A stretch of 56,890 nucleotides of DNA from Neolewinella lacunae (GTDB taxonomy: Bacteria; Bacteroidota; Bacteroidia; Chitinophagales; Saprospiraceae): assembly GCF_014349155.1 (NCBI RefSeq), contig NZ_JACSIT010000092.1, forward strand, positions 1 through 56,890. The letters are read 5' to 3'. Shown piece by piece: positions 1,936 to 46,575 of this stretch (position 1 is the stretch's first letter; the number at the start of each line of letters is the position of its first letter). Under the pieces are notes generated by a model. The model saw only the letters and a program-made list of their open reading frames with translations. It made no database searches and was not told where the DNA came from. The translations under genes and the position numbers were made by a program.

Positions 1936-2874
1936 TTACCTTTTTGGCCCTTTTCTCCCTTTTTCCTTTACTCCCTTAATCCGGTCCGGATAATCAGTAA
2001 TGATGCCCGCTACGCCCAGTTCGAGCAGCTCCCGCATGCGGGTGGTATCGTTGACCGTCCAGGGCACCACGCGCATGCCCAGGGCGTGGGCTTCGGCCAT
2101 GAGGGCGGCATCGACGTGGATTTCGTAGGGACTGTAAATCGGCGGCGTGAAGCCAATGGCAGCCATCTTTTCAGACAGTCCGCCGGGGAATTCATCCAGG
2201 TAAGCCAGTTGTAAGTCGGGGCGCTTGGCGTGAATGATGGCCAAAGTGGGCGGATCAAAACACTGCAAGGTGACCAACTCGGGGTGGTTCCAGGCGTCGA
2301 TATCGGCTAAGACGAGGTCCACAAAAGTATCGCGGGAGGGGACGAAATGGGGCTCTAAATCCGCTTCGTACTTCAGTTCGATGTTGTAGCGGGGCGAAGG
2401 GCGTTGGTTTTGCACGCAGTAGCGGTCAACGGCGGCGAAAACGGCGGCCAGGGTGGGTTTGTGGGCGGGGCGCTGGGCCTGCTCCGGGAAGCGAGGGTGG
2501 GGGAGTTGTCCGCAGTCGTAAGTCGCAATTTCCTCGGCCGTCAGGCTGCGCAGGCTGATGCGGTCTTCTTCGGCGGCAGAGAGTTTTTCGCCGTTGGGCC
2601 CCAAACAGATTTCGGCGCTCATCCAGGGTTCGTGGCTGACGATGACGCGGTAGTCGGCGGAGATCACCACGTCGAGCTCCAGCGTCTGAACTGCGGGGTA
2701 GCTCAGCGCCCGGAGGAAGGCGGGGATGGTATTTTCGGGCAGGAGGCCACGGCAGCCGCGGTGGCCTTGCCAGTCGATGGCCGTGCTGGTTTCGGGCATG
2801 GAGTCGTTTTTTTGGGGCGCCGGAGCGCAGGTGCAAAGTAAGAAGACCAGGAGCAGGGGGAGGGAAGGCTTCAT
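1936..2874 (-). CDS. Glycerophosphodiester phosphodiesterase lipoprotein
   Basis: A GDPD-family protein that would hydrolyse glycerophosphodiesters to glycerol-3-phosphate and an alcohol. The open frame runs back to 2970, but the first 27 codons there are an araA remnant, so I place the start at the ATG at 2874. This gives a clean lipoprotein signal, MKPSLPLLLVFLLCTC, with Cys after LLCT or LCT. Mature-domain motifs are GHRG..PENT (His-Arg-Gly and Glu of the active site), LELDVV (metal-binding Glu and Asp), VSHEPWM (second His), NIELKYE, and the C-terminal PWTVND...ITDYPD. Length of about 312 residues is normal. It is the last gene of the arabinose operon by position, but has no obvious role in arabinose use. 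Translation from 2970 would make an AraA-GDPD hybrid. Confidence 0.85.
   Translation of the reverse strand: MKPSLPLLLVFLLCTCAPAPQKNDSMPETSTAIDWQGHRGCRGLLPENTIPAFLRALSYPAVQTLELDVVISADYRVIVSHEPWMSAEICLGPNGEKLSAAEEDRISLRSLTAEEIATYDCGQLPHPRFPEQAQRPAHKPTLAAVFAAVDRYCVQNQRPSPRYNIELKYEADLEPHFVPSRDTFVDLVLADIDAWNHPELVTLQCFDPPTLAIIHAKRPDLQLAYLDEFPGGLSEKMAAIGFTPPIYSPYEIHVDAALMAEAHALGMRVVPWTVNDTTRMRELLELGVAGIITDYPDRIKGVKEKGRKGPKR
2814..2837 (-). repeat. Dispersed GC-rich repeat, diverged copy in the GDPD signal region
   Basis: The minus strand reads TTTGCACCTGCG followed by CTCCGGCGCCCC, a slightly diverged copy of the repeat TTGCACCTGCGKCCGCGCC. It lies over the lipobox codons of the glycerophosphodiesterase. 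Confidence 0.5.
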
Positions 2875-2889
2875 GGCGCTAAGGTAAGG

Positions 2890-2970
2890 CTGAAGGGTCT
2901 CGGGTCCGTAAAGATGTTGGCTTCCGGTGATGAACCAGAGTTGTTTACCGTTAATTGAATGCTCGTTCAT
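2890..2970 (-). pseudogene. araA: L-arabinose isomerase remnant (first 27 codons)
   Basis: The 27 codons from ATG 2970 encode MNEHSINGKQLWFITGSQHL and then YGPETLQ. This matches the highly conserved N-terminus of L-arabinose isomerase, where WF(I/V)xGSQHLYGPETL is diagnostic. Similarity stops abruptly and the frame runs through PYLSA into the glycerophosphodiesterase lipoprotein. The remaining 470 or so codons of a normal AraA are absent from the window. The start codon lies only 5 bp after the araD stop, the expected spacing for an araB-araD-araA operon, so the remnant is in its native place. Either the rest was deleted or the assembly has joined two sites. Isomerase activity is impossible from this fragment. 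Confidence 0.85.
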
Positions 2971-2975
2971 GTTGG

Positions 2976-3674
2976 TTATTGGCCGTAATAGGCGTTTTTT
3001 CCGTGTTTGCGCTCGTAGTGCTTGCGAATAAGGGCGTCACTAAGTCTGGGAGCGTTGGGGTTAATCTGGAGGGTAAGTTGTGCCATGCGTGCTACCTCCT
3101 CCAATACTTTGCTATGGTAAACGGCTTTTGCTGCGCTTCCTCCCCAGGTGAAAGGGCCGTGATTGCCCAGCAAAACCATCGGCACTTCCCGGTAGTCAAG
3201 TTCCCGCGAGGCAAAACAATCGGTGATTTGTCGTCCCGTATTGTGTTCGTAGTTGCCCGCAATGAGTGCTTCATCCATGGGCGGGGCGCAGGGGATGTCT
3301 ACCGTAAGGTGATCAGCGTGGGTGGTGCCGAGGATGGGAATATCGCGCTGTGCTTGAGCCCAAGCCACCGAGTAGGTCGCGTGGGTGTGCGCGATGCCGC
3401 CAATCTCTTCCCAATTTTTGTACAACCACGCGTGGGTGCGGGTGTCTGACGACGGACGTAGTTTACCTTCGACCACATTGTTGTCGAAATCGAGGATGAC
3501 CATATCCTCTGGCGCAAGCTGTTCGTAAGGTACACCGCTGGGTTTGATGGCAAATGTGCCTCGTGCACGGTCAACCGCACTTACGTTGCCAAAAGTATAA
3601 ATGACGAGGCTCAACGCCTGGAGTTCCATATTGGCCTCGTAGCACGTTTGCTTCAGTTCTTGATAGTTGGACAT
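2976..3674 (-). CDS. araD: L-ribulose-5-phosphate 4-epimerase
   Basis: A 232-residue class II aldolase/epimerase that converts L-ribulose-5-phosphate to D-xylulose-5-phosphate, the last step of the bacterial L-arabinose pathway, in the cytoplasm. The length is the same as the enterobacterial enzyme. Visible landmarks are GNVSAVDR (30-36), KPSGV (44-48), SSDT (75-78, with D77), the zinc ligands H96 and H98 in HTHAT and H172 in GNHGPF, the catalytic Asp D121 in TTHAD, and the C-terminal KHGKNAYYGQ with Tyr230. All known active-site residues are present. It sits between an araB remnant (stop 2 bp upstream) and an araA remnant (start 5 bp downstream), so it is the only intact gene of the araBDA trio here. 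Confidence 0.95.
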   Translation of the reverse strand: MSNYQELKQTCYEANMELQALSLVIYTFGNVSAVDRARGTFAIKPSGVPYEQLAPEDMVILDFDNNVVEGKLRPSSDTRTHAWLYKNWEEIGGIAHTHATYSVAWAQAQRDIPILGTTHADHLTVDIPCAPPMDEALIAGNYEHNTGRQITDCFASRELDYREVPMVLLGNHGPFTWGGSAAKAVYHSKVLEEVARMAQLTLQINPNAPRLSDALIRKHYERKHGKNAYYGQ

Positions 3675-3676
3675 AA

Positions 3677-3832
3677 TTAGTGTTCTATGGTTGAGGGATT
3701 TGATTTGACGGTTTGTGCCTCGACAAATGCGCCAATGGCTTCGTACTTCCGCAACAAGGGGTGGAATTGCTTTACTCTTTTTGGTTCGGAGCCGTAGTCG
3801 AGTCCGATCACGTAATCTTTCGTCTCTTGCAT
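3677..3832 (-). pseudogene. araB: L-ribulokinase remnant with large internal deletion
   Basis: A 51-codon frame starting at 3832. Its first 15 residues, MQETKDYVIGLDYGS, match the N-terminus and phosphate-binding motif of FGGY-family ribulokinase. The following part, around KQFHPLLRKYEAIGAFVEAQ, resembles the extreme C-terminus of Bacteroidota AraB (tyrosine-rich helix ending in LGxFxE). About 500 residues between are missing, and the join is in frame around residues 15-20. The C-terminal assignment is from memory of the family and is less certain than the N-terminal one. Native context is kept: 6 bp after the GH51 gene and 2 bp before araD. The product cannot be a kinase. Confidence 0.75.
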
Positions 3833-3838
3833 GGGAAA

Positions 3839-5839
3839 TTATTGCAGTTTAACGGTGTAGAGCACGAACGCATAGCCCGGGAGGCTCGTGTTTAGCATGC
3901 CTTTGCTTACTTCCGCTTGGCCAGCGACCGGGCTGATTTTCGTCGGCTCCTCGAAAGAATTTACCGCGTCCAATGCATCAGAAACCATAGTGAGGGTCTT
4001 AACCGTTCCATTCGCCTTCGCACCTTTGATGTTGATGGAAAGTTCCTGGGCTTTTGCTCCGGTGTTGACCAGCTTGATGATCAGTTCGTTGGTCGCTGCG
4101 TTGCGTACCGCCGAAGCGTAAAGGTCATTTTGCCCCGTTAAAGCCTTTCCTGCTTCGGTAATGCTCAGCAAATCAGTGCCAGGGTGGTTGGCGTACATTT
4201 TTTGCACGTAGTAGTTGGCCGTACCGTAGGCCGAAAGGTTGTTGAACCAAATCATATCCGGCGTCCATTGCCAACCCTCAGCGTGGGCCATCAGCGGGGC
4301 GTAGGAAGTCATTACCACAATGTCGGCATTGCGTTCCATTCCGGTCATGTAAGCCGCTTCCGAAAGTGCACACTCCCAATTGTTTTTATTGTCGGGGCTG
4401 GCAATGGCTACACTCTGCGCGGCGTACTCCCCGGCAAAGATCTTTGGGCCATTGCGGTCGTAATCATCGTAGCGCGTAGCATTCTGCCGGAACCACTCCG
4501 GGGAACGGTAGTAATGTTCGTCTACCAACTCTGCGTTGAGCTTGGTAAGCTCCTCCATGCCGTATTCAAACATTTCTCCGTCGGGGAACGGACCACTGCC
4601 CGATACCACCGTGATATCGGGATACTTGCTTTTGATGGCAGCATCGAAAACTTTGTAGCGCTCGATATAGTCTTCACCCCACTGCTCATTCCCTACACCG
4701 ATGTACTTTAGGTTAAAAGGCTCAGGATGCCCCATATCACTACGCAGTTTGCCCCATTCGGTATTTACCGCACCGTTGGCGAATTCGATTAAGTCGAGTG
4801 CATCGTCAATGTAAGGGCCCAGTTCATCCATCGGGACGAGTTCCCCGGTATTGAATTGGCAGGCCATTCCACAGCTCAGGATGGGCAGGGGCTCCGCGCC
4901 CATGTCTTCAGAAAGCTGGAAGTACTCAAAGAAACCTAAACCAAAACTCTGGTAGTAATCTGGCGTTGGGCGGTGGTCAAACTCCGTATTCCAACGATTG
5001 ATCAGGAACTCCCGGTCCTCCACGGGGCCGACCGTCTTTTTCCACTGGTAGCGCCGGTCCAAGGTCCGGCCTTCAACGATACAGCCTCCGGGGAAGCGGA
5101 GGAAGCCCGGCTGAAGGTCGTCCAAAAGTTGCACGAGGTCCTTGCGCATGCCTTTCTTGCGGCCCTTCCACGTGTCCTGGGGGAAGAGACTGATCATGTC
5201 CAGGTCAATCTCCCCCTTGCCGGTGAAGGTCAGCTTCAACTGCGCTTTCTCCACGGTCTCTGCTACGGAAATAACGGCCTCGTATGTCTTCCAGGCACTT
5301 CCGGAAACGCTTAGCGTAGCTTGCCCGACAACTTTGCCAGCCCCATCCACAATTTGGGCAGTAATTCCGGAGATGTTTCCCGCCTGCACCGCCGCCTGTA
5401 GGGTTAAGTCGTACTGCTGGCCAGCAACTACCCCCATGCCCCGAAATCCTTCGTTGAGCAACTGGTATTTATCCCCTTTGACGATCACTTTCAGGTAATT
5501 GGCTTTTTTCCCACTGCGGTCCTCCTTAACCACCGCGCCAATTCCCGATCCTTCGTTCATCGACCAGCGGTCGGAGTTGGGCTCCAGCCAACCTGTCTTG
5601 GGAAGCGTAAATTCAAAACTGCGGTTTTTGACCATCTCCGCGTAAAGGCCACCGTCCGCAGCAAAATTGATGTCCTCAAAAAAGATGCCGTACATCGTTG
5701 GCTGGATCGCCGCCCGGGATGTTTCCGCATCCACCGTCAAGGTCCGCGCATTGCTGCTGGCCTGGCTTTGCAGTTTATTTACGCTACACGCTGTAAATAG
5801 CAAAAGGATGCCCGGCAAAAGTGCAAAAATTGATTTCAT
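3839..5839 (-). CDS. GH51 alpha-L-arabinofuranosidase lipoprotein
   Basis: A 666-residue GH51 enzyme that removes terminal alpha-L-arabinofuranose from arabinan, arabinoxylan or arabinogalactan side chains. The start gives a lipoprotein signal with lipobox LLFTAC. After a short linker, residues about 30-60 carry the GH51 signature PTMYGIFFEDINFAADGGLY. A carbohydrate-binding CBM4/9-like beta domain follows (about 75-225), then the barrel with RFPGGCIVEG, the acid/base E385 in VGNEQWGEDY and the nucleophile E471 in FAGEYAAQS. The C-terminal beta domain ends at FVLYTVKLQ. Both catalytic Glu are present. It is the second gene of the arabinose operon, 33 bp after GH127. Confidence 0.93.
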   Translation of the reverse strand: MKSIFALLPGILLLFTACSVNKLQSQASSNARTLTVDAETSRAAIQPTMYGIFFEDINFAADGGLYAEMVKNRSFEFTLPKTGWLEPNSDRWSMNEGSGIGAVVKEDRSGKKANYLKVIVKGDKYQLLNEGFRGMGVVAGQQYDLTLQAAVQAGNISGITAQIVDGAGKVVGQATLSVSGSAWKTYEAVISVAETVEKAQLKLTFTGKGEIDLDMISLFPQDTWKGRKKGMRKDLVQLLDDLQPGFLRFPGGCIVEGRTLDRRYQWKKTVGPVEDREFLINRWNTEFDHRPTPDYYQSFGLGFFEYFQLSEDMGAEPLPILSCGMACQFNTGELVPMDELGPYIDDALDLIEFANGAVNTEWGKLRSDMGHPEPFNLKYIGVGNEQWGEDYIERYKVFDAAIKSKYPDITVVSGSGPFPDGEMFEYGMEELTKLNAELVDEHYYRSPEWFRQNATRYDDYDRNGPKIFAGEYAAQSVAIASPDNKNNWECALSEAAYMTGMERNADIVVMTSYAPLMAHAEGWQWTPDMIWFNNLSAYGTANYYVQKMYANHPGTDLLSITEAGKALTGQNDLYASAVRNAATNELIIKLVNTGAKAQELSINIKGAKANGTVKTLTMVSDALDAVNSFEEPTKISPVAGQAEVSKGMLNTSLPGYAFVLYTVKLQ

Positions 5840-5872
5840 GCTTTTTTTTTTAATTTCAAATTAGTCATTAGC

Positions 5873-7867
5873 TCAGGGTGTGGCTCGTTTCAGCCATACT
5901 TTCATTTTTCCGACGCCCCGGTTAGACCAGGCATAGTAAGGGACGGCCGTGAGTTGCGCGTTGCGCACCACTTGGATACCGCCCAGAATGTCCTGTGCCT
6001 CCACCGCAAAGGCATCATCGACCGAGACCTCGATGTTTTCGAAACTGCTAGGATTGTCAATCGATTCGACGGCGTAAACCAGGGGGCCCCGTTCCAGTGC
6101 CAGGTGTTCCCGGTTTTCCTCCACTTGTTCGGCGGCCACTACCTTGCGCACGGGCATGGGAAAGGACAGCTCCACACGGTCGCCGGCTTGCCAGTTGCGC
6201 GTTACCGTGAAGTAGCCGTTTTCTACCCGAAGGTCCAGCACCTCGCCGTTGAGGGAGATGGTGGGAGATTGTTCGGCTTGCCCCAGGTAGGCGTACAATT
6301 CCCCCGGCATCGGTACGTTCCTGGCCCACGAAGGCACCCGGAATTTGAGGGTGGCAGAGCTTGGGGCCGCCGGATTTACCTCAATACTTACTTGGCCATC
6401 CCAGGGATAATCCGTGCGTTGCCGAAGACTAAACATCGTGTTTCCCAGCGCAATCTCGGCCGTACTGGCGGCGTACAGATTGGTGAAGATGCTTTGTTCC
6501 CCCGTAGCGTACAGTAAACCGGGGACCGCGGGGAGGAAGCGGATGAGGTTGGTGGGGCAACAGGAACAGTCAAACCAGTTTTGCCGCGTACACGAGCCGA
6601 AGTTGGATAGGTAGACGCCGTCAGAAGCCAGCGCGTTGGGATAGAAAAATTTGGTGCCGTCCAACGAAAGCCCCGCAATCAAGCCATTGTATAAGGTGCG
6701 TTCCATGACGTCCAGATACTCCACTTTTCCCGTCTTACGGTGCAAGCGCTGCGCCCAGTAGACGCTGCCAATCGCGGCACAAGTCTCCGCGTAGGCGGTC
6801 AGGTTGGGCAGCTCGTAGTTCTCTCCAAAAGACTCCCCTTCGTGGCGGGCCCCAATCCCTCCGGTCAGGTAGGTTTTCTTACCCACCATATTTTCCCACA
6901 AACGGTCTACCGCACTGGCGTAGGCTTCGTCGTTCATCAACACCGCAACGTCGGTCATTGCCGCGTACATGTAGACCGCCCTTACGGCGTGACCGACTAC
7001 TTCCGTCTGCTGCGTTACCGGAAGGTGATCCTGGGAATAAGGGCCGTACAGTTTGTGGTTGTCGGCATTACCACGGTTGTCCAGAAAGTAGCGCGCCAAC
7101 TCCAAATAGGCTTGTTTGCCCGTAAGCTGATAGAGCTTAATGAGGCCGGTTTCAATAATTTGGTGGCCCGGGACGTCCTGGATTTTTCCCGCTCCCTCCC
7201 CGAAAGTAGCCACCATCAAATCTGCGTTTTTGAGCGCGATGTCCAAGAAATTTCGCTTGTTGGTAGCCAGGTGATGAACCACCGCAGCCTCGTACAGGTG
7301 GCCGGCGTTGTAGAGTTCGTGGCTCGCGCCCAACGATTCCCAGCGTACGCCCTGGTCTACGGCCACCCACTTTGCCGGGGGCGCAGCGGGATTGATCGTC
7401 CGCCAGGTCGTTAAATACCCGTCTTCCTCCTGGCCCACCGCAATGATCGCGATCAGCGTATCGAGCAAATGGCTCAATTCATCATTCGGAGAGCTGATCA
7501 GGGAATTGGAAGCGCCCTCGATGATTTTGTAGAGGTCCGTATCGTCAAAAGGCATCGCCCCTTTTACCGTCCCGGGCAGCTGGCCACCGGCAATCAGGAA
7601 ATTATCCATCCGGCCTTCCTCTTCGCATTTTTGCAGCGCGTACGCAATGGTCTTTTCCTGGACCCGCCGGATGATGGGGAGCCAGAAGTTGTCCTCCATC
7701 TTCACGTTCTGGATGTCTACCGGCGCCAGTGCGTAAGCAGGCGCAACGTTTTCGGGCGCGGCCGCAGGTGCCGTGGGCTGACAGGCAGCAAGCCACAAAC
7801 AGCAGCTGAAGCAAACTACTGCACAGCATCCCCGTGCCGTAAGCGCAAAATGGATAAAAGTGGTCAT
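5873..7867 (-). CDS. GH127 family glycoside hydrolase (DUF1680) lipoprotein
   Basis: A 664-residue GH127 protein. Characterised members are cysteine-dependent beta-L-arabinofuranosidases; some marine Bacteroidota members instead act on 3,6-anhydro-D-galactose in carrageenan. The zinc/thiolate site is intact: E361 and C363 in YAETCAA, and the pair C436-C437 in DCSCCPTN, the first being the likely nucleophile. The signal peptide has an unusual run of cysteines before the lipobox LWLAAC, followed by an Ala/Pro linker that is itself a copy of the dispersed repeat. First gene of the arabinose operon. The GH51 and ara-gene neighbours favour an arabinose substrate; the sulfatases in the wider locus keep the galactan option open. 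Confidence 0.92.
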   Translation of the reverse strand: MTTFIHFALTARGCCAVVCFSCCLWLAACQPTAPAAAPENVAPAYALAPVDIQNVKMEDNFWLPIIRRVQEKTIAYALQKCEEEGRMDNFLIAGGQLPGTVKGAMPFDDTDLYKIIEGASNSLISSPNDELSHLLDTLIAIIAVGQEEDGYLTTWRTINPAAPPAKWVAVDQGVRWESLGASHELYNAGHLYEAAVVHHLATNKRNFLDIALKNADLMVATFGEGAGKIQDVPGHQIIETGLIKLYQLTGKQAYLELARYFLDNRGNADNHKLYGPYSQDHLPVTQQTEVVGHAVRAVYMYAAMTDVAVLMNDEAYASAVDRLWENMVGKKTYLTGGIGARHEGESFGENYELPNLTAYAETCAAIGSVYWAQRLHRKTGKVEYLDVMERTLYNGLIAGLSLDGTKFFYPNALASDGVYLSNFGSCTRQNWFDCSCCPTNLIRFLPAVPGLLYATGEQSIFTNLYAASTAEIALGNTMFSLRQRTDYPWDGQVSIEVNPAAPSSATLKFRVPSWARNVPMPGELYAYLGQAEQSPTISLNGEVLDLRVENGYFTVTRNWQAGDRVELSFPMPVRKVVAAEQVEENREHLALERGPLVYAVESIDNPSSFENIEVSVDDAFAVEAQDILGGIQVVRNAQLTAVPYYAWSNRGVGKMKVWLKRATP
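7754..7772 (-). repeat. Dispersed GC-rich repeat inside the GH127 linker
   Basis: The minus strand reads GGCACCTGCGGCCGCGCCC and codes APAAAP just after the lipobox. The same six codons occur in the sulfatase at 24417. Confidence 0.75.
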
Positions 7868-8127
7868 GTTCTCAATATTTATCGTTTAACCGTGGCTTTC
7901 GTAGCAGCTGCCTGGCCTTGCTATTGGCTCCGCCTTACTTTCCCTGCACCTGCGTCCGCGCCCTCCTTAATTGTTGTCCTCCGGGAAGGCACCAATTCTG
8001 GTAAAAAATGGAAAAGTTAACAAATTTTCGCAAAAGTCAAACTTAGCTTAAAGCCTCCGCAAAATTTGCGCACCTGCTGCTGATACCGCGTACTTTGGGA
8101 CATAATAAACGCATAAACGTTCCCGCC
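7868..8127. promoter_or_regulatory. Divergent promoter region of GH127 operon and Thr-rich gene
   Basis: A 260-bp intergenic region between divergent genes. On the minus strand TAAGTTTG (8045-8038) fits the Bacteroidota -7 element TAnnTTTG and would give a leader of about 165 nt for the GH127 operon; I see no well-spaced -33 element for it. On the plus strand TACTTTGG (8091-8098) is a one-mismatch -7 element, 22 bp after TTTG (8065-8068). The small palindrome GCAAAATTTGC (8059-8069) lies between them and could be an operator. A copy of the dispersed repeat lies at 7942-7962. Confidence 0.4.
7942..7962 (+). repeat. Dispersed GC-rich repeat, intergenic
   Basis: CCTGCACCTGCGTCCGCGCCC, in inverted orientation to the copy at 7754 and about 170 bp from it, upstream of GH127. 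Confidence 0.72.
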
Positions 8128-8682: not shown

Positions 8683-8730
8683 ACCCCTCACAGATTAATC
8701 CCCTCTGAACAAAGTCATTCCCCATTTTCC

Positions 8731-8773: not shown

Positions 8774-8807
8774 GGGGGAGGGTGGTGTGCGGGGCGCAGC
8801 TGCTTTC

Positions 8808-8838: not shown

Positions 8839-8843
8839 GTGCT

Positions 8844-14065: not shown

Positions 14066-14088
14066 GGGCGCGGACGCAGGTGCAAAGG
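14066..14088 (-). repeat. Dispersed GC-rich repeat upstream of the DUF1080 gene
   Basis: Minus strand CCTTTGCACCTGCGTCCGCGCCC, with similarity to the GH2 copy extending over about 40 bp (GCTCTTTT upstream, CAA downstream). Here it is untranslated, 20 bp before the ATG. Confidence 0.78.
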
Positions 14089-14117: not shown

Positions 14118-15944
14118 TCACTGCCGTACTACCCAAACTACCCAGTCCATTTCTACTTCTGCGGGTGGGACGGGCACGGCTATTGCACCGTTCACTGCAT
14201 CCTGCGTCCGCGCCCGAATCGCATACTGCCCCGTGCGTGGGTTGAAGAGGGAAACGGCGTAGCGGCCCGCTGGCACCTTTAGGGTATTGGCGGGTTTTTC
14301 GCCCATTTTCAGGAGGATGAGGTAAGCCTTGCCCGGCTGGGCCAGTACCCAATCCTGCTCGCTGCTGGTCAATTCATTATTGGGCAGCATGGCGGGCAGC
14401 GGCGGGCGGTTGTCCGCCAGAAACGCAAGTTGGTATCGGCACTGGTCCCAGAATTTGTCGCGGCTGCGAAAGTCCTCGCACGTGAGGTCGGAGTGATCGT
14501 GCTGGTAGCCGAAGTACCATTCCGCTCCCCAGCCACCGGCCAGCAAGTTGCCCCACAGCGCATTCTGGCGGGCCAGATTGTGGGCATTGGCGTGCTTACC
14601 GTTCACGTCAGCATCGGGGACGAGGCTGTGCTGGGCATCGCCGGGTTCGTCGATGGCGATGGCCCAGCCGACCTTTTCCTCGGCGGCTAATTGGTGCCAG
14701 CTGCGGATGTTGGGATACACGAGGCGAAAATCCGCGTGGTGGGTCTGCAAGGATAAGCCGCTGTATTTGCTCTCGGGGCCCAGCAGATCGTAAAACTCCT
14801 GTCCGTTGTGAATGACGACGTGGTGGCGGTAGGGGTCGTTTTCGTAAAAAAAGCGGGCCATGGCCAGTCGCTGGGTAGTGGTCTGCCACGGGGTGGGGTG
14901 GTTCTCAACCCAGCGGCCGTTTTCTTCCCCCATGTTCCAGTTCAGCGCCAGGTGGTGGCCGAAGCGGGCAATCAACTCACGGTAGTAGAGTTTACGCTGT
15001 GGCCCCAGGTCTCCGCCATCCAGCAGGCCCTGATTTTCCATCTCAGCGGTCTTGAAGTGCAAAAACATCCCCCTGCTTTCGCCGTGCTGGAAGATGATTT
15101 CCCACTGGGCGAGCTTACTCACGTCCATGCGCTCGTAGTCATCGTACCTCAGGTAGGGGAACACGTTGCGGTCGTCGCCAGCGATGTTGAGGGTCAGAAA
15201 GCTGAATACATTGAGCCCCTTTTCGGCGAGGTAATTGATCGCTCCGATCAAGGCTTTCCCCTTGCCGTCTTTCCAGGTGGGGTCCCCGGGCCGCCAGTCG
15301 GGGAGGTGCGGAGCCCAGCTTTTTACCAATTGGTCTTTATGGCCATCGTCGTGAAAGGTTCCGTCAAAGTCGGCGTAGGACAGCAAGTTTTCCGGTGCGT
15401 CCGTACCGACTTTGTAGAAGTACTCCCCGGTTTCGGCCCAGACGGGGTATTTACGCCCGTGAAAGAGGAGGCGCCCCCGGGAGCGGAAGTGATCAGGGGC
15501 TTTGTCGTTGGCCGCGACCTCAAAACTCCCCCGCTTCCCGTCGAAAGGGGGCATTGGGTCGCCGGCCCGCGGGTGGTCGGCTACCGCTACGTTGTTGCCC
15601 CGGCGAAAGCTGACCTCGTAGGTCCAACGGCCAATGCGGTCGGGCACAAAATGCACCCTCCAGCGGTCTCCGGCACTGGCACCGGTATTGGCCGCATCGC
15701 CGTCGGCGGCAAAATATCCAGGGACTACGTAGGTTACGGAGTCGTGGCGGAAGGTGACGTCCATCCGGTAGTGCAAAAAGGGATTATGCTGGTGGTTTTC
15801 CGACGTTTTAGGGCCGGTCTGCTCCAGGGTGATGACGTGCCATTTTTTGCGTTCACCCTCGATCTGGACCTGGGCGGACAAGGCCGCTGTAGCCCAAGTG
15901 CAGAGAACAAACAAAGGAAGCATTCGGCAAAGGAGAGGGAGCAT
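14118..15944 (-). CDS. DUF5060-containing putative glycoside hydrolase
   Basis: A 608-residue secreted protein. The signal peptide is MLPLLCRMLPLFVLCTWATA. An N-terminal Ig-like DUF5060 domain (about residues 25-140; KWHVITLEQTGP, YVVPGYFAADGDA, GRWTYEVSF) precedes a probable TIM barrel. The barrel carries candidate catalytic Glu residues in LNWNMGEENGRW and AIAIDEPGDA, spaced as in clan GH-A retaining enzymes. A short C-terminal beta domain ends in DWVVWVVRQ. The ATG at 15944 shares one base with the stop of the upstream sulfatase (TAATG), so the two are probably translationally coupled. Substrate unknown. Confidence 0.8.
   Translation of the reverse strand: MLPLLCRMLPLFVLCTWATAALSAQVQIEGERKKWHVITLEQTGPKTSENHQHNPFLHYRMDVTFRHDSVTYVVPGYFAADGDAANTGASAGDRWRVHFVPDRIGRWTYEVSFRRGNNVAVADHPRAGDPMPPFDGKRGSFEVAANDKAPDHFRSRGRLLFHGRKYPVWAETGEYFYKVGTDAPENLLSYADFDGTFHDDGHKDQLVKSWAPHLPDWRPGDPTWKDGKGKALIGAINYLAEKGLNVFSFLTLNIAGDDRNVFPYLRYDDYERMDVSKLAQWEIIFQHGESRGMFLHFKTAEMENQGLLDGGDLGPQRKLYYRELIARFGHHLALNWNMGEENGRWVENHPTPWQTTTQRLAMARFFYENDPYRHHVVIHNGQEFYDLLGPESKYSGLSLQTHHADFRLVYPNIRSWHQLAAEEKVGWAIAIDEPGDAQHSLVPDADVNGKHANAHNLARQNALWGNLLAGGWGAEWYFGYQHDHSDLTCEDFRSRDKFWDQCRYQLAFLADNRPPLPAMLPNNELTSSEQDWVLAQPGKAYLILLKMGEKPANTLKVPAGRYAVSLFNPRTGQYAIRARTQDAVNGAIAVPVPPAEVEMDWVVWVVRQ
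14197..14213 (+). repeat. Possible diverged copy of the dispersed repeat
   Basis: TGCATCCTGCGTCCGCGCCC matches the repeat except for one inserted or changed base. It lies inside the 3' end of the DUF5060 gene, inverted relative to the copy at 14066, about 110 bp away. Confidence 0.4.
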
Positions 15945-24345: not shown

Positions 24346-25947
24346 ATGAAATCAACTTACTTGGCCTTACCCTTTTGCTGGGGGGCGATATTACTTTCCT
24401 TGCTTACAACTTGCACTGCACCTGCGGCCGCGCCCTCCGTTGTTGCTCGCGACATTTCGGTGCCCCAACCCAATATACTCTTCATTTTTTCCGATGATTT
24501 GAGCTTTCGGGACTTGAGCGCCTACGGCCAGCGCAATTACGCGACGCCCCACCTGGATGCCTTGGTACGGCGATCGACGCGCTTCACGCAGGCCTACACC
24601 GCTGCGCCGGAGTGTGCGCCCTCCCGGGGTTGCCTGCTTACGGGCAAACACGTGGGGCGGGGCCCCATCCGGATCAATTCCAGCGCGCGGGGCTTTGAAC
24701 CCCTGCCGGCGGGAAGTAACACCTTTGCCGAAAAATTACAGCAAGCCGGCTACCGCACCGGGGTGGTGGGCAAATGGGGCGTTGGCTACCGGGGCAGCAC
24801 CGGGGAACCGCTGCGGCAGGGTTTCGATTACCACTTTGGTTACTTAAGTCACTACGAGGCGCATTCTTATTTCCCGTTGGAATTATTTGAAAACGAAGAA
24901 ACCTTGCCTTTGCGCGGAAACGATGCTTTCCCCCTGGAGACCCTCTACGCGAAAAAGGGTACGGAAAACAAGGCTTCGTTTGCGGAGATGTACAACGCCA
25001 GTGGAAAGCTGGAATACCTCGAACGCCCGGGCGCGACCTACGCACCGGATTTGATGGACCAAAAGGCGGCGGCGTTCATTGAAGAGAATAAGGACCGGCC
25101 CTTTTTCCTGTTTTTTACGACCAATTTACCCCACGGCCCGTCGATTGTTGACGACCTAAGGGCATTTAGTACGCGGGAAGAGATGGACATTAATTCGCGG
25201 GAATGGGGGGCGATGGTGCAGCGCCTGGACGAGAGCGTTGGGCGTCTCATAGCGCAACTCAAAGCAACGGGGACTTACGATAATACGGTGATTGTATTTG
25301 CCAGTGACAACGGGTACTCGATGCACAACCCGAAGCAGGATGTGGCGGGGGAGCAGTATTGGCCGGATGACCCCTGGTTGCTGAATAAGGGGCCGTTTCT
25401 GGGTGGTAAGTTTTCGGTTCGCGAGGGCGGCATGCGGGTGCCCTTCTTCGTCAGTATGCCCGGGCAGTTAGAAAGCCGGGTGGTGAGTACGCCGGTTTGG
25501 CTGGTGGATTTGTACCCCACTTTCGTCCGGTTGGCAGGTGGGGAAGTGCCCGCTGATTTGGATGGAGTGGCCTTGCAGCCCTTGCTCGGTGGGGGGGCGG
25601 GGACTTTTCCGGAGGAGCGTCCTTTTTATTTCTACAAGAACAACGAGCAGTCGGTGCGCAAAGGCGCGTGGTTTGGGTGGCGGGCCCACCCTGCGGCGGC
25701 GCTGGAGGTGTACCTGCCGGAAGAAGACCAAGCGTGTGCTTTTGATTTGGCTGGCGTTTACCCGGCGGTGGCGGCCGAACTAAGCCAATACCTGGATACC
25801 GTCCACCAAGACCACCCTTGGTACTGGAACCCTGGGGAGCGGGCCGAAGACTACCAGGCTAAAATTGCGCTGGCGGAAAAAACCGGGCAAATAATTCCCC
25901 GGTACCGCCCCAATCGTATGGCGCGAATGCCCTGGGAACGAAAATGA
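24346..25947 (+). CDS. S1-family sulfatase lipoprotein
   Basis: A 533-residue type I sulfatase. The signal peptide ends in LLSLLTTC (lipobox), followed by an APAAAP linker that is a copy of the dispersed repeat. The metal motif is NILFIFSDDLSFRDL. The formylglycine site is C90 in PECAPSRGCLLTGKH, a full CxPSR match. Also visible are VGKWGVGYRG (conserved Lys), FFTTNLPHGPS and FASDNGYSMHNPKQD (Asp-Asn metal ligands). All expected active-site residues are present, so it should remove a sugar sulfate in the periplasm or on a membrane once matured. Similarity is to arylsulfatase A-like enzymes. The sulfatase-maturing enzyme is not encoded in this window. Confidence 0.92.
   Translation: MKSTYLALPFCWGAILLSLLTTCTAPAAAPSVVARDISVPQPNILFIFSDDLSFRDLSAYGQRNYATPHLDALVRRSTRFTQAYTAAPECAPSRGCLLTGKHVGRGPIRINSSARGFEPLPAGSNTFAEKLQQAGYRTGVVGKWGVGYRGSTGEPLRQGFDYHFGYLSHYEAHSYFPLELFENEETLPLRGNDAFPLETLYAKKGTENKASFAEMYNASGKLEYLERPGATYAPDLMDQKAAAFIEENKDRPFFLFFTTNLPHGPSIVDDLRAFSTREEMDINSREWGAMVQRLDESVGRLIAQLKATGTYDNTVIVFASDNGYSMHNPKQDVAGEQYWPDDPWLLNKGPFLGGKFSVREGGMRVPFFVSMPGQLESRVVSTPVWLVDLYPTFVRLAGGEVPADLDGVALQPLLGGGAGTFPEERPFYFYKNNEQSVRKGAWFGWRAHPAAALEVYLPEEDQACAFDLAGVYPAVAAELSQYLDTVHQDHPWYWNPGERAEDYQAKIALAEKTGQIIPRYRPNRMARMPWERK
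24417..24435 (+). repeat. Dispersed GC-rich repeat in the sulfatase linker
   Basis: TGCACCTGCGGCCGCGCCC, codons GCA-CCT-GCG-GCC-GCG-CCC (APAAAP), the same six codons as in GH127 at 7754. Confidence 0.75.
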
Positions 25948-41341: not shown

Positions 41342-41364
41342 GCCTCTTCAGAATCGCTTCTACT

Positions 41365-42405
41365 ATGAAAGTAATTAATAAAGCACCCCTCTTTTTGCTG
41401 TTGGCTTCCCTGCTGTACACTGGCTGTGAAAACCAGGAAATCACTTTTGATGATTTTGATTATACGGCGGTCTATTTCCCCCTGCAATCCCCGCTGCGTA
41501 CCCTGGTTTTAGGGAGCGACCGCATCGATAATTCATTGGATAATGAATTGAAATTCAACGTTGGCGTCAGCATCGGCGGACTCTACACGAATGACCAGGA
41601 ATGGACGGTAGGTGTTGATTTTGCTCCTGAACTCGCCCAAGGCTTGAAAAATGTCGCGGGAGATTCGCTGTACCTCCTGCCAAATGCCTACATCCGGCAG
41701 GTAAGCCCGGCGGTCCCGGGGCAGGCCATTATTCCCGCCGGGGAATACAACGCGCTTTTCGAATTCCAACTCGAAGATGCTTTCCTGGACGATCCTTTAG
41801 CCTGGACGGGCCAGTACGTATTACCCTTGCGCCTCGTAGAAACCAGCGCGGATTCAATTCTCATCGGCCGTTCCAACCTCCCCAACCCCGACCCCCGCGT
41901 AGCCAGTGACTGGGCCGTAGATGCCTCACCCAAAGATTTCACCCTTTTTGGCATTAAATTCGTTAATCAGTTTCACGGCAATTATTTACAGCGCGGCCGG
42001 GTAATCCAAACCAATGCCCAAGGACAAACAATTGGTACGACGCGCTACCGGGCCAATTTCCTTACGCAAAATACCATTTGGACTTTAAGTACCCGCGGAC
42101 GCAATACCGTGGTAACCAACGGAGTAGCCAATGAAGTGGGGACCGGATTTGGGATGCAACTCAATATCAGTGGCAATCAAATTACTATTTCTCCAGCACC
42201 GGGCACGCAGTACGCAGTTTCCGGCACTGGCACCTTTATTCCCGCTTCCGAAAGCCCTGAATTATGGGGCGGAACTACCCACAATACCCTGCATTTAAAT
42301 TATGCCTATACGGTAGGGGAAAACGTATTTATGGCTACTGATACCTTGGTTATTCGGGACCGAAACATTACTTTCGAGGAAATTGATCTGGTCGTTGTAG
42401 AGTGA
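41365..42405 (+). CDS. DUF1735 surface glycan-binding lipoprotein (SusE-position)
   Basis: A 346-residue lipoprotein, signal ending LLYTGCENQ. The N-terminal half fits the DUF1735/BT_3987-like domain (DYTAVYFPLQSPLRTLVLG, NELKFNVGVSIGG, IPAGEYNALFEFQL, YVLPLRLVETS). The C-terminal half (about 205-346; FHGNYLQRGRVIQT, TIWTLSTRGRNTVVTNG, MATDTLVIRDRN) looks like the DUF5627/DUF4361 type. Such proteins follow SusD genes and bind glycan on the cell surface in SusE/SusF fashion. It is 23 bp after SusD 2 and last in the operon, directly before a strong terminator. Confidence 0.85.
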   Translation: MKVINKAPLFLLLASLLYTGCENQEITFDDFDYTAVYFPLQSPLRTLVLGSDRIDNSLDNELKFNVGVSIGGLYTNDQEWTVGVDFAPELAQGLKNVAGDSLYLLPNAYIRQVSPAVPGQAIIPAGEYNALFEFQLEDAFLDDPLAWTGQYVLPLRLVETSADSILIGRSNLPNPDPRVASDWAVDASPKDFTLFGIKFVNQFHGNYLQRGRVIQTNAQGQTIGTTRYRANFLTQNTIWTLSTRGRNTVVTNGVANEVGTGFGMQLNISGNQITISPAPGTQYAVSGTGTFIPASESPELWGGTTHNTLHLNYAYTVGENVFMATDTLVIRDRNITFEEIDLVVVE

Positions 42406-42439
42406 TTTCGCTCTGCGCCGTAAAGCGGATCTGGCTTTT

Positions 42440-42472
42440 AACGCACCTCTCTCCCGGGGTGCGTTTTTTTTT
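42440..42472 (+). terminator. Rho-independent terminator closing the SusCD operon
   Basis: Stem AACGCACC (42440-42447) / GGTGCGTT (42458-42465), with a T-run to 42472, 35 bp after the DUF1735 stop. Confidence 0.9.
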
Positions 42473-42671
42473 GCGGCGGGCATGGCGGCGTAAGTCTTCA
42501 GTCCGCCCGGTAAGGATCAAGGAGTCAGCCGAGTTAATACTACCGAGCCCCCATCAGGCACTAGCGCTGTTGCTGGGCACGGGTAGGAGGTAAGTACCGA
42601 ACCATTTGAATGTAGAAATGAAATTATACACCAAAGAGTTGTAGTAGCCGGGGTAGCATCTCCTGACTTTG

Positions 42672-42690
42672 TGCGCGGCCGCAGGTGCAT
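42672..42690 (-). repeat. Dispersed GC-rich repeat, left arm of inverted pair
   Basis: TGCGCGGCCGCAGGTGCAT on the plus strand. Minus-strand reading matches TTGCACCTGCGGCCGCGCC except at the two end bases. Confidence 0.8.
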
Positions 42691-42770
42691 CCCTAGGGAC
42701 AAAAGCAAAGTATGGGACCAGTAAACGTCTTTTGCGCCTTACCTTACCCTGCGCTTCAAAGTGACTTACC

Positions 42771-42789
42771 TTGCACCTGCGGCCGCGCC
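42771..42789 (+). repeat. Dispersed GC-rich repeat, right arm of inverted pair
   Basis: TTGCACCTGCGGCCGCGCC, the consensus form, 21 bp beyond the 3' end of the LytTR regulator gene. Confidence 0.82.
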
Positions 42790-42810
42790 ATATTAAATGC
42801 AGAAGCACTT

Positions 42811-43572
42811 TTATTTCAGCATTTTCAGGGCGGCTAAGAACTCCTTGCGGTAGGTATTCCCGATGGGAAGGGTTTCTCCGTTGATGGTGATGGAGGATTC
42901 TCCCAGGTTGATCGTTTCGATGAGCTGGGTGTTGATGAGGTAGGACTTATGAATGCGCAAAAAGCCTAGTTCAGGTAACTCGCCTTCTAAGGTTTTTAAC
43001 TGGGTGCTGGTGGGGTAACTGCGGCTGCCCACTTTGGCAATGCTCATCTTTTGGTCGGCGTAAAAATAGGCCACTTGGTTGAGCGGGATGGTTTTAAAGA
43101 CATCGCCTACTTTGAAATATAGGCTGTGCTGCTGGGCGGTGGGGTGTGCAGCGTTTTCGCCGTCCCGGTTTTTATCGGGATCGAAGGTGGGCATAAGGGC
43201 AATATCGATGGCTTGGTAAACCTTTACGCGGGATAATTCCTTGCTCAGAAATCCCGCCGGGCGGGTGTGGCGTGCGTACGCGTAATACTCCTCCGTATGG
43301 TTGGAAGTGAGATAAATAATGGGGGTTTGAATGTGCCGCCGGCGGAGTTCTTCGGCCAGCATAATGCCATTCCTCCCTGGCCCGAGGTGGATGTCAATCA
43401 GTAAAAGATCGATGTCCTCTTCGTCCTCGATTGCCCGCAGCGCCTCTTCGTAAGTAACTGCGTAGTGCAGCTTATGGAAAGACATTTGGTTGAGCAGCAG
43501 GGTGAGCAAATTTACAAAGCGGTGGTCGTCTTCCACCACCAGAATAGTGGCGTCTTCGATTTTCTTTTTCAT
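42811..43572 (-). CDS. LytTR-family response regulator
   Basis: A 253-residue cytoplasmic regulator. N-terminal receiver domain (about 8-125) with the acidic pocket VVEDDH, phosphoacceptor D60 in LLLIDIHLG, the conserved Thr/Ser region IIYLTSN and Lys in FLSKE. After a charged linker, a C-terminal LytTR DNA-binding domain (about 150-253): VAYFYADQKMSIAKV, LGFLRIHKSYLIN, INGETLPIGNTYRKEF. The partner kinase is the gene immediately upstream, 90 bp away, so the two form one two-component operon. Position directly after the SusCD block makes control of this locus possible, but LytTR regulators are not the usual PUL regulators. Start ATG 43572. Confidence 0.94.
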   Translation of the reverse strand: MKKKIEDATILVVEDDHRFVNLLTLLLNQMSFHKLHYAVTYEEALRAIEDEEDIDLLLIDIHLGPGRNGIMLAEELRRRHIQTPIIYLTSNHTEEYYAYARHTRPAGFLSKELSRVKVYQAIDIALMPTFDPDKNRDGENAAHPTAQQHSLYFKVGDVFKTIPLNQVAYFYADQKMSIAKVGSRSYPTSTQLKTLEGELPELGFLRIHKSYLINTQLIETINLGESSITINGETLPIGNTYRKEFLAALKMLK

Positions 43573-43662
43573 AGTAGAGACAGTTGAGTGAATGGGAAAT
43601 GGATAGGAGATGGCTGGTGGGTGGCAGCCTAAAATTCAACTAGTGCAGGGTGGTGTTGTTCC

Positions 43663-45876
43663 TCAATTGGCATTACTGAAGGCTGGGGTGGGTTGCTGAA
43701 GTGGTGTGTTTTCTAAAAAGGTTACGATGAACCGAGTGCCACCTTCGGGGGGAGCTACGTGGTGGATGCTTGCGCCGTACTCGTATAGTGTGGTGCGCAG
43801 CAGATGGAGACCCAGGTGCTGCCCTTGGCTATGGTCTTGGCGCTCGGCGCTAAAAATAGTGTCTTCTAATGCTGGGGATATGCCGGGGCCATTGTCCTCC
43901 ACCACCCAGCAAGGGTGATTGAGGGGGTCCTTTTCTTCGGCAATGCGCAGGGTTGGTGCGGGCTGGTGGCCAGCGTAGCGGCAGGCGTTGGAGATGAGGT
44001 TTTGGAATACCTGCTCGATGATGGCAGGGGGTAAAGGGCAGGGGCTGAGGGGCTGGAGGGATACTTGAAAGTTGGCGTCGCGCAGGGCCGGGCCCAGGCG
44101 ATCCAATACTTTTTGGGCGATGGGGGTGGGGTCCGTCAGTGGCACTTTACGTTGGGCGGGCGTCCGCCGGGCCTCGGTGAGCAGGCCCAGACAGTAATTT
44201 TTCAATTGCCGGTGAATATCCCGGCTGATGTCATAATACTGGATGAGGTTGGGGGTTTTGGGAGATGAACCTACCAAGACGCTGCCCGTAGAAAGTAATA
44301 AATTTAAGTTGCTCAGAATATCGTGGGATACGACTCCCGTAAAGCGCATTAGTTTGTCGTTACTGCGGCGTAATTTTTCTTGCTCCACAAGCAGTTGCTG
44401 ATTGATTTCCTGAAGCTTATCGGCTGCGGATTGTTTTAAGCGGTAGTTGCGGTAGGAAACAAAAGCCAGTCCGCCTACTAAAAGCAGCCCGAGGGCCGCA
44501 CCCGTTAGCAAGGTGCGCTGCCGTTTTATCTGGGCAAGACTGGCAAACTGTTTTTGGGCTTGTTGGAGCTCGAGGATTTCTTTTTCCTTGGCAAACGCAT
44601 TGTTCAGGTGGGTGCGCATAAACTCTTTGGAGTCGCTTGCCTGCTGCATGGAGGTTTTCAACAGGAATGCTTTTTCCAGGTGCGCGTAAGCACTATCCAG
44701 TTGTTGGGTGGCAAAAAAAGCATTGCTTAAGTACTGGTGGATTTGGGAAAGCATCGAAGGATCATTCATCCGCTGTGCTGCTGCGAAAGCCTCCTGGCCA
44801 CGGCTTATGGCCTCGGGATAATCCTTCTGAATAATGGCAATTTCGGCCAGGTAAATTTGCGACCAAATAATGGAGAAACGGTTGACTTTAAACTTCCCGG
44901 CACTCGCGTCCAATACTTTTTGAAAGTAAGGAGCGGCAGTTTCAGGTTGATTACAAGGCCCTAACATCGCTAGGGCGTAACTGTACCATACATCGGGAAG
45001 TGTGGGGTGCTCTGGCTCGGAAAACGTAATTTGGGTGGCTTGTGCCAGGTATTGATTGGCTTCTTCCACATTACGAACTGTTAACAATCGTAATTCAATG
45101 GCTTTAAGTGGGTTATAAAACTCACCCGGGCTTTCGTAGATGCTATACATTTGTTGTGTGTAAGGCACTCCGTTTTCAATTTCACCGAATGCACGGTAGG
45201 TAAGCATTAGGGTTTCCAGTGCGCTGAGGATTTTTGAGGTATCGCGGAGATTTTCGGCCAGATTTAGCATTTTGAAGCCGTGGGTAAAGACCAGCGTATA
45301 CTGCGAGTGCTGCTCATGGCTGGAAATTTTTTGTTCATAAACGTTGCAAAGCAAAAGACTGTCTTTACGGCTCCGGCCACCGGTGGAAAGCAGTTGTTCG
45401 GCAGCGTCGAACAGGGCAATGGCCTCCTTTGATGCGTTGGTGCGGAGTGCTGCCCAGCCTGCATTATTAAGACCTTGGGCTTCGAGATGGATGATTTGCG
45501 CCCGGGCAAAGTGGGCGGCGGAACGCTCGTAGGTCTCCTTGGCAGCGGCGTAGCGCTGCCACAACAGGTGATTAAAGCCACGGCATTCTTCACAAGCTCC
45601 TTGCTGGATGGCACTGCTGCCGGAGAGGGTGCAGACACTATCCGTTAGGGCCGCAAGCCGCGCCGAATCCTTTGCTATGTAGTGTTCTCTCGCCCGGTAG
45701 TGGATGGACAATGCCGCTTCTTCGGACCAGTCGGCCTGGGCACCGAGCCCTCCCGGCAGGCAGGCTACGTAGGCCCAAAGGAGGCACCAACAAAGTAAAT
45801 TAGGCCACGCGATAAGGCTTGGACCAGAAAGCTTGGGAGGGGAGGCCTGGACGCTTGTTGCTTGGAGCAGGTGCAT
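43663..45876 (-). CDS. TPR-containing sensor histidine kinase
   Basis: A 737-residue kinase from ATG 45876 (an upstream in-frame ATG at 46050 gives a long Ser/Thr/Arg-rich tail before the signal segment and is less likely). The hydrophobic N-terminus NLLCWCLLWAYVACLPGG is followed by a large periplasmic TPR region (about 60-430; KETYERSAAHFARAQ, DSAYAHLEKAFLL), a coiled coil, one membrane segment (LLTGAALGLLLVGGLAFVSY, near 470) and a second coiled coil. The kinase core has H518 in GVVSHDILSN, the N box NLISNACRYAG and the G box VEDNGPGISP. Its cognate regulator is the LytTR gene 90 bp downstream. Confidence 0.9.
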   Translation of the reverse strand: MHLLQATSVQASPPKLSGPSLIAWPNLLCWCLLWAYVACLPGGLGAQADWSEEAALSIHYRAREHYIAKDSARLAALTDSVCTLSGSSAIQQGACEECRGFNHLLWQRYAAAKETYERSAAHFARAQIIHLEAQGLNNAGWAALRTNASKEAIALFDAAEQLLSTGGRSRKDSLLLCNVYEQKISSHEQHSQYTLVFTHGFKMLNLAENLRDTSKILSALETLMLTYRAFGEIENGVPYTQQMYSIYESPGEFYNPLKAIELRLLTVRNVEEANQYLAQATQITFSEPEHPTLPDVWYSYALAMLGPCNQPETAAPYFQKVLDASAGKFKVNRFSIIWSQIYLAEIAIIQKDYPEAISRGQEAFAAAQRMNDPSMLSQIHQYLSNAFFATQQLDSAYAHLEKAFLLKTSMQQASDSKEFMRTHLNNAFAKEKEILELQQAQKQFASLAQIKRQRTLLTGAALGLLLVGGLAFVSYRNYRLKQSAADKLQEINQQLLVEQEKLRRSNDKLMRFTGVVSHDILSNLNLLLSTGSVLVGSSPKTPNLIQYYDISRDIHRQLKNYCLGLLTEARRTPAQRKVPLTDPTPIAQKVLDRLGPALRDANFQVSLQPLSPCPLPPAIIEQVFQNLISNACRYAGHQPAPTLRIAEEKDPLNHPCWVVEDNGPGISPALEDTIFSAERQDHSQGQHLGLHLLRTTLYEYGASIHHVAPPEGGTRFIVTFLENTPLQQPTPAFSNAN

Positions 45877-46575
45877 ATTGGTTTTGGTTTTTGTTCTCGT
45901 TGTCGATTTGACTGGACCGGGAAGAATAGTTGAGTGTAAACCCCTGGCAAACCGAGTGCTCAGGATGGCGGTAAGAGAGAAAGTTAAGACAAAACACGGA
46001 TACGAACGAAGAGAGCAGCGCGCTGGGGGAGGGGAGGGGCTGGTCTTCACCCAGCTCCCTTGTCACAGCCCTTGCACCTGCGGCCGCGCCAAAACTACGA
46101 AGCGTGCGCTAAGCAATACGACGCGATGAGCGCAAGGTGGGTCACCCTCCGGAGCTGAACCTTCTTTTGATTTTCCGGATCACCAAGCGACGCAGCTTGA
46201 ATGGGCTTTATTGAGGAATAAAAGCAAGGATTGGGGCATGAACGATTAAAGAGGCCTCGTTTGGGGGCACTGGGAGCCCGAACGCGCTTTAAACTCACTT
46301 GGTTGGCCCTTTTGCTGTGATCATTCCTGTAGAAGGTCGTTAATGCCGTAAGGTGACTTTGCCGCTTCCGAAGGTTACAACTTTGGGTTTGAAAACAAGA
46401 AGAGTGGTAAGGCCTAACGCACCGAAATACGGAGTTTGAACAGTCCTTTACATAGGCTACGCCTAATGAGGAGGATCGGACCAAATACGAGCAATACTGC
46501 AGCACTGTTGACACGCTGGTTTTAGAATTTGTTTATACGCACTGCTGGCTACGGGCCCGCACTCAGTCTCATGTT
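45877..46575. other. Divergent gap upstream of kinase and giant surface protein
   Basis: About 700 bp without a supported gene. A 139-codon minus-strand frame (46095-46514) has no recognisable domain, no signal peptide and a Ser/Arg/Cys-rich composition, so it is not called. TTGACA (46508-46513), 18 bp, TTTATA (46532-46537) resembles a sigma-70 -35/-10 pair 40 bp before the giant gene; in Bacteroidota this could be chance. The dispersed repeat lies at 46072-46090. Confidence 0.35.
46072..46090 (+). repeat. Dispersed GC-rich repeat upstream of the kinase gene
   Basis: TTGCACCTGCGGCCGCGCC, identical to the copy at 42771. The two exact copies flank the two-component operon in the same orientation. 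Confidence 0.82.

Follow-up and report, generated by a model that had tools for sequence, protein, structure and literature searches.

An abundant asymmetric DNA motif with strand-specific spacing in Neolewinella, possibly a self-DNA signal of Bacteroidota

The stretch of DNA analysed here (the window) comprises positions 1 to 56,890 of contig NZ_JACSIT010000092.1 of Neolewinella lacunae and contains several copies of a short GC-rich repeat. Our analysis demonstrates that these copies belong to a genus-wide, asymmetric DNA signal of ~30-45 bp, the sites of which exclude one another within about 3 kb when they share an orientation. We propose that the motif could be an orientation-sensitive self-DNA signal that works like the uptake sequences of Neisseria and Haemophilus, in this case in Bacteroidota, and we assign to this reading a probability of roughly 45%.

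From an alignment of copies, the motif was reduced to twelve fixed bases, GCACC-n-GCG-nnnn-CGCC, composing a 17-bp core that is not a palindrome of the HIP1 (highly iterated palindrome 1) type. In the N. lacunae genome itself (G000; 5.8 Mb in 154 contigs, with pattern counts on the whole genome and 850 kb examined in detail), the exact core is equally common on both strands (609 + 615 = 1224), while its reversed control yields 4 + 4 = 8. When two mismatches are allowed, the 18-mer TGCACCTGCGKCCGCGCC matches 655 + 656 times and its reversed pattern 2 + 2 times. This is the strong over-representation on both strands by which uptake sequences are recognised. In the window, 8 matches to the 19-mer (up to three mismatches) compare with a mean of 0.03 and a maximum of 1 in 100 dinucleotide shuffles. 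An earlier note, made from the letters of the window alone, had reported this dispersed repeat and made its case depend on a genome-wide frequency above chance; both the repeat and its excess are borne out. As separate observations, the word TGAACTATGAACTA is also strongly enriched in the N. lacunae genome, and a repeated AACCTGCAACCTGC word, probably a tandem array, is enriched in a stretch of G002 (L110-L119, G002:C27:1-200000).

The signal extends beyond the core. A pyrimidine-rich box (YTGCTCC) lies two helical turns upstream of it in N. lacunae: over 182 exact sites, the pattern [CTG][CTG]GC[TC][CT] begins 77 times at -22 to -20, on a background of ~2.6 per position, and another 21 times at -43, where a C/G hairpin of ~22 nt, again two helical turns, separates box and core. 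Such a CCCCC..GGGGG hairpin occurs in 38 of the 182 copies (L060-L099). The 40 upstream bases carry 3-8 bits in coding and intergenic copies alike in the genome groups examined. Only these flank figures are independent, as the 20-28 bits of the core are largely set by selecting sites on the twelve fixed bases; by arithmetic, ~13 bits are needed to mark 1224 places in this genome. The sites are all-or-none, with near-misses scarce. Beside 185 exact copies, the 850 kb hold 55 single-mismatch copies (mean 18 and maximum 49 in 25 permuted controls), of which those supported by their flanks number 16 at the last base and ~6 across the other eleven positions. The corresponding values for G019 are 22 single-mismatch beside 35 exact copies, with 9 flank-supported at the last base and 3 elsewhere.

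The spacing of the sites is strand-specific. From one site to the next, the orientation tends to change (228 opposite, 112 same), and same-orientation pairs closer than 3 kb are strongly depleted: 10 against 66.5 expected in N. lacunae, 3 against 33.8 in G002, G014, G005 and G019 together, and 0 against 7.4 in six low-copy genomes. Their counts recover at 3-4 kb. Opposite pairs within the same distance number 51 against 70.2, 38 against 36.1 and 13 against 8.4, respectively. With the positions held, 13 same and 102 opposite pairs within 3 kb give p = 2.7e-18, the pairs being not fully independent. Expectations were summed over bins; stretches with fewer than 6 exact sites were dropped (C12 of G000, C27 of G005 and all of G016), and G012 and G004 were left out. 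At distances below 300 bp in N. lacunae, single-mismatch sites included, 19 pairs stand back to back, 4 face to face and 3 in the same orientation. Since same-orientation copies are direct repeats, the spacing might reflect mere selection against deletions between them. However, direct repeats other than the motif, counted from 16 bp upwards, are frequent within 3 kb and outnumber inverted ones, so that the exclusion belongs to the motif itself, and we regard this explanation as exceedingly improbable.

Most of the coding sites compared look as if they arose in place by substitution, because 65 of 108 comparisons of 46 coding sites with site-less orthologues align without gaps near the site. 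The remaining comparisons show a net gain of at least 5 residues in 19 cases (several at uncertain starts), a smaller gain in 12 and a loss in 12. Evolution in place, at permissive locations and in permissive reading frames, is also what characterises uptake sequences. A gene near gyrA, porin-like by appearance, carries the exact core in six signal peptides and a single mismatch in one among ten genomes, and G001, G006 and G013 have other codons at this place; its length in G001 and G006 equals that in G008 and is two residues shorter in G020. Some of these genomes were represented through two loci, and L120 was assigned to G003 from its coordinates. Upstream of a gene that we take to encode polyphosphate kinase, an intergenic site occupies the same place in five species and is absent in G011. 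Between syntenic intergenic regions that have a site and those that lack one, the median length difference is 10 nt, with a scatter too wide to be informative (123 comparisons). No target duplication is evident by eye in 32 inverted pairs.

These observations bear on the suggestion of the earlier note that the motif is a mobile repeat of the repetitive extragenic palindromic (REP) type, to which the paired REPIN elements and miniature inverted-repeat transposable elements may be added. The high copy number, the C/G hairpins and the back-to-back arrangement of 19 of the 26 closest pairs are what such an element would show. Nevertheless, the core lacks a palindrome, decayed copies are few, sites are shared at fixed places, and most, though not all, orthologue comparisons speak against spread by insertion. 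A Y1_Tnp profile search for the REP-associated tyrosine transposase (RAYT) proposed as a check revealed two Y1 transposase genes in the N. lacunae genome, with no motif site nearer than ~2.3-2.4 kb. Among 20 Y1 loci across the genus, a site lies within 1 kb in 9 cases, in no fixed place and at about the frequency that we estimate from site density, and the link was rejected as these neighbourhoods show no consistent association. Y1 counts are also unrelated to copy number: G018 has no Y1 gene and 1126 sites, G001 four Y1 genes and 8 sites. A mobile repeat is thus largely refuted and very improbable. The pattern expected of a true REP is seen in the site-poor G001 with quite a different word: eight copies of ACGGGCCTGGAAGGCACG, several of them ~77 bp apart, flank a Y1 transposase gene (G001:C44, L392:2992-4176). 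This word led the de novo search of that genome, with 8 of its 11 copies beside the one gene, and it is likely a REP/RAYT array unrelated to the motif.

The exact core was counted in 21 genomes of the genus, 18 of which hold 208-1575 copies. The site-poor ones are G006 with 41 (control 4), G001 with 8 (control 5) and G010 with 8 (control 1). For the 19 genomes from other genera (4 from the same family, 15 from the same order), only the 18-mer of the N. lacunae dialect was counted, and it gives 12 matches with up to two mismatches, in 5 genomes; samples of 17-67 kb from Phaeodactylibacter and other genera contain no clear motif. Within the genus, the motif is written in dialects. In G013, all 10 sites have A at core position 12; at position 13, C is found in 6 of 6 sites of G017 and 4 of 4 of G004, and G in 99% of 185 sites of G000. 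A site downstream of gyrA is shared by four species with their own endings, CCCCGC in G011 and G004 and CGCGCC in G016 and G008. The dialects follow clades as those of uptake sequences do, with partial adherence at shared sites.

G010 has a different motif, TTGCTACTTTGnnAGCC with an A-rich stretch behind it, present as 27 nine-mers in 100 kb against 1.7 expected (L323-L327, G010:C1:247389-347388). The longer form GCTACTTTGNNAGNC is present in 15 exact and 6 single-mismatch copies (reversed control 0 and 3). It lies on both strands, within and between genes, and has the layout of the main motif: nine-base word, gap, GCC and A-rich tail. Judged from this resemblance, it is probably a distant dialect. 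Its pairs number 1 same and 6 opposite (p = 0.125, a small sample), or 4 and 16 with the bare 9-mer. In a tree built from gyrA, G010 is basal. G001 has G006 as its sister (support 0.98), and the pair joins three motif-rich species (0.95); support at some of the deeper nodes falls as low as 0.26. Because the two sisters are nested among motif-rich species, the sites were probably lost in their lineage, as far as a single-gene tree indicates. A de novo word search in 100-111 kb of G001 and G006 gave no convincing replacement motif.

The motif also occurs in phages. In IMG/VR, the strict core is found in 83 stretches; the 80 listed derive from 74 contigs, of which 14 have at least two copies, and most single matches may be due to chance. 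Contig 3300009467_000002, with terminase, head protease and antirepressor genes, has 8 exact sites in 34 kb, and contig 3300012037_000001, with a tape-measure protein, has 6 in 22 kb; the pieces carrying sites do not overlap. As these pieces were chosen for containing sites, their densities lean high; over the full contig 3300009467_000002, 8 sites correspond to 18 per 100 kb, in comparison with 21 in the host genome. CTCVRAQ signal peptides are encoded by some of the phage sites. By their motif content alone, the two metagenomic tailed phages would infect this genus. Accumulation in phages is again a trait of uptake sequences, and temperate Pasteurellaceae phages are described as gathering the uptake signal sequence (USS) in a similar way (PMC6776037). 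Motif content could be used for host assignment of tailed metagenomic phages (L208, L223, L236, L273 and L233, L235).

Eight of the ten window copies listed in the earlier note proved to be members of the motif; those at 2814 and 14197 are degenerate. GH denotes glycoside hydrolase, ORF open reading frame and GDPD glycerophosphodiester phosphodiesterase.

7755..7773, minus strand: motif copy in the N-terminal region of a GH127 enzyme, coding APAAAP
7944..7962, plus strand: motif copy, called intergenic, back to back with the copy at 7755, 191 bp apart
14067..14085, minus strand: motif copy between genes, ~20 nt ahead of a start codon
20619..20637, minus strand: motif copy coding the end of a GH2 signal peptide (CTCVRAQ)
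24416..24434, plus strand: motif copy in the N-terminal region of a sulfatase (TAPAAAP)
42672..42690, minus strand: motif copy, terminal A variant, intergenic between convergent genes, back to back with the copy at 42771
42771..42789, plus strand: motif copy 21 nt from the stop codon of a LytTR response regulator, facing the regulator gene
46072..46090, plus strand: motif copy flanked by an ORF with a histidine-kinase-type ATPase domain (minus strand) and a 2942-aa ORF (plus strand)
2818..2836, minus strand: degenerate look-alike, not a member (2814 of the earlier list), in the signal-peptide-like start of a GDPD-family protein, CTCAPAPQ
14201..14219, plus strand: relic, not a member (14197 of the earlier list), with one inserted base, GCA-T-CCTGCGTCCGCGCC

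The look-alike at 2814 retains only the first nine core bases (GCACCTGCGCTCCGGCG). The peptides spelled by the copies, LAACQPTAPAAAP in GH127, TTCTAPAAAP in the sulfatase and LLLCTCVRAQ in GH2, agree with the reading frames first described, as does the similarity of the copies at 14066 and 20618 (93% over 40 bases). An Rfam search of the window returned nothing at the gathering score. Inverted repeats around CCGTCTAGACGG / GCCGTCTAAAAAGTC, perhaps terminators, lie near the window start (1-18, 140-163 and 1883-1900).

The view that DNA rather than protein is conserved holds well beyond the window. In 143 coding sites, the sense frames are used 29, 29 and 7 times and the antisense frames 38, 39 and 1 times (counts given without a null for frame use), so that 135 sites are spread across four of the six frames; the frames spelling LHLRPR or RRGRRC, peptides read from the codons, account for the other 8. 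Flanking bases are common to intergenic and coding copies as well. The motif is tolerated in signal peptides and linkers, and the proposal that it seeds lipoprotein linkers is right to this extent, although we consider this a consequence of the motif. A DNA-level force thus writes signal peptides and linkers into proteins.

The position of the sites relative to genes is less uniform than the earlier label "at gene 5' ends" suggests. Of 185 exact sites in the 850 kb, 50 lie inside called genes; the 135 intergenic ones include 77 that face a gene start, in keeping with the label, and 58 that face a gene end. In 14 other site-bearing genomes pooled, 93 of 179 sites are within genes. Genes were called by a home-made codon-score caller that misses some signal peptides (those at 7755 and 20619), and intergenic counts are therefore slightly high. 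A promoter, terminator or regulon site would account for the gene-end position and for the bias of intergenic sites to gene starts in nine low-copy genomes (31 vs 8, single-mismatch sites included). Against it, many sites lie inside genes, and there is no fixed orientation to transcription, as tandem intergenic sites in N. lacunae split 37 vs 31. Furthermore, 28 TAnnTTTG boxes were found on the motif strand around 75 start-facing sites of this genome: 21 at 20-180 nt downstream, 2 that start within the 20 nt preceding the core, and none that starts within the first 20 nt counted from the beginning of the core. We therefore hold a regulatory role of this kind to be highly unlikely.

The scarcity of near-misses, the origin in place, the dialects, the loss in one clade and the accumulation in phages together point to a molecular drive, in which a sequence-reading step is followed by recombination. 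Such a drive has been argued for uptake sequences (PMC1939737, PMC3630211). The strand-specific exclusion, in turn, suggests that each site serves the DNA on one of its sides over ~3 kb. In the mechanism that we envisage, a trans-acting factor, presumably a protein, would recognise the motif on double-stranded DNA and act on the adjoining DNA with polarity over ~3 kb. Motif-bearing DNA would preferentially be taken in, or processed and recombined. Under weak coding constraint, sites would then accumulate in place up to the point at which every stretch is served once in each orientation; another site pointing the same way within ~3 kb would be redundant, and an opposite one less so.

Several observations weigh against a signal of the uptake type. 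In the sections of PMC1939737 consulted, the orientation of the strongest site has no significant effect on uptake by H. influenzae, and the spacing of USS is less even than a role in compaction would need; strand-specific exclusion is consequently no known property of uptake sequences, as far as that source goes. Face-to-face opposite pairs within 3 kb are also depleted in N. lacunae (17 against 34.7 expected), and back-to-back ones are not (34 against 35.5). Adherence to dialect is incomplete, given that the signal-peptide site in G011 and G004 keeps CGCGCC. No receptor was found, no search having been aimed at a ComP-like one, and competence in Neolewinella was not found in the literature consulted. 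The pilus/secretion ATPase family (type II/IV), the sole pilus family searched, lacks a strong match in the genus: the cut-off of 24.9 bits is barely reached in 11 of 21 genomes (best 24.9, up to 25.5 with neighbours), with partial matches over ~84 of 370 profile positions in ORFs of ~950 aa, so that a type IV pilus machine of the kind linked to uptake sequences was not recognised. The genes essential in Riemerella, a transformable member of Bacteroidota, include those for a TonB-receptor-like barrel and a DUF5689 surface protein (PMC8459023). None of 20 motif-lineage genomes has DUF5689, and none of the 16 examined for it has the Riemerella-type barrel. Both occur in the basal G010 with its own motif, and DUF5689 is also found in 15 of 19 other-genus genomes. 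Finally, ComEC was found in all 19 genus genomes examined and HHH_3 proteins in 20 of 21, the exception being a 55% complete genome; both are present in site-poor genomes too. Site loss is therefore independent of their loss, and both were discarded as markers because they do not separate the site-poor genomes.

The Riemerella-type candidate pair of barrel and DUF5689 protein in G010 lies at L430:673-5601. A methylase-like neighbour of the pair, presumably TrmN6, is likewise found in 0 of 20 motif-lineage genomes, so that one stem deletion may explain the joint absence of the three genes. Either the outer-membrane step has been replaced in this lineage or the motif serves another machine.

Such a machine could be of a new kind. 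In this tentative alternative, which we take seriously, the motif is a strand-polar self-DNA mark read in one direction over ~3 kb by a DNA-handling machine independent of type IV pili, with a self-driven even spread on each strand of chromosome and phages and with dialects. A polar intracellular genome-maintenance signal (Chi-like, a helicase/nuclease switch or a translocase cue), required once per few kb in each orientation, would also explain the exclusion below 3 kb, the two phages with copies near host density and the promoter boxes lying mostly downstream of start-facing sites. It seems unlikely, however, as a 17-bp core with a second box in N. lacunae is unlike the length of Chi sites, and the near-equal orientations in most stretches examined, with replication arms unmapped, are unlike their skew. 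The binding site of an abundant chromosome-organising or insulating protein, with each site under selection, appears rather improbable. The intergenic bias, the box in phase at -21, or at -43 with the hairpin inserted, and the intergenic site conserved in five species are in its favour. It does not readily account for the scarcity of near-misses, the sites in protein bodies and phages or the dialect shifts over many sites. The regulator or nucleoid-protein site considered in the earlier note retains a share of the probability, although it fits the strand-specific spacing and the phage copies more poorly.

If the uptake-like reading is true, sequence-based recognition of self-DNA has evolved again in Bacteroidota, perhaps with another machine. 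The exclusion provides a quantitative handle (orientation, ~3 kb) for testing the mechanism. With its site-rich, site-poor and dialect-switched species, the genus also offers a natural experiment by which the reader could be sought. Literature searches of incomplete coverage found neither the motif words nor anything relevant on uptake sequences in Bacteroidetes/Bacteroidota, and those for overrepresented words in Neolewinella and repeats in Lewinella gave nothing relevant among the matches listed.

Known systems share some of these properties. Chi sites are 5-8 nt long and skewed with replication; their orientation matters and phages can carry them. The Neolewinella motif resembles them in the last two respects, and differs in its length, its second box and the lack of strand skew. 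REP and REPIN elements are intergenic, present in many copies and arranged in inverted pairs, traits seen here as well, whereas the motif has neither a palindromic core nor a consistent RAYT neighbourhood and mostly was not inserted. Like the cyanobacterial HIP1, it is a highly iterated genomic word, but HIP1 is a short palindrome (GCGATCGC) in the excerpt of PMC4390886 and the motif is asymmetric. Uptake sequences, in the sources as excerpted, are described for Neisseriaceae and Pasteurellaceae, with uptake linked to type IV pili. In comparison with the Pasteurellaceae USS, the motif belongs to Bacteroidota, has an unrelated GC-rich sequence and a ~3 kb same-orientation exclusion, and appears without a convincing pilus ATPase. 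It is similar to the DNA uptake sequence (DUS) of Neisseriaceae, as presented in the part of PMC3630211 consulted, in its dialects following phylogeny, permissive locations and inverted pairs, the DUS being a 10-12-mer and the core here 17 bp.

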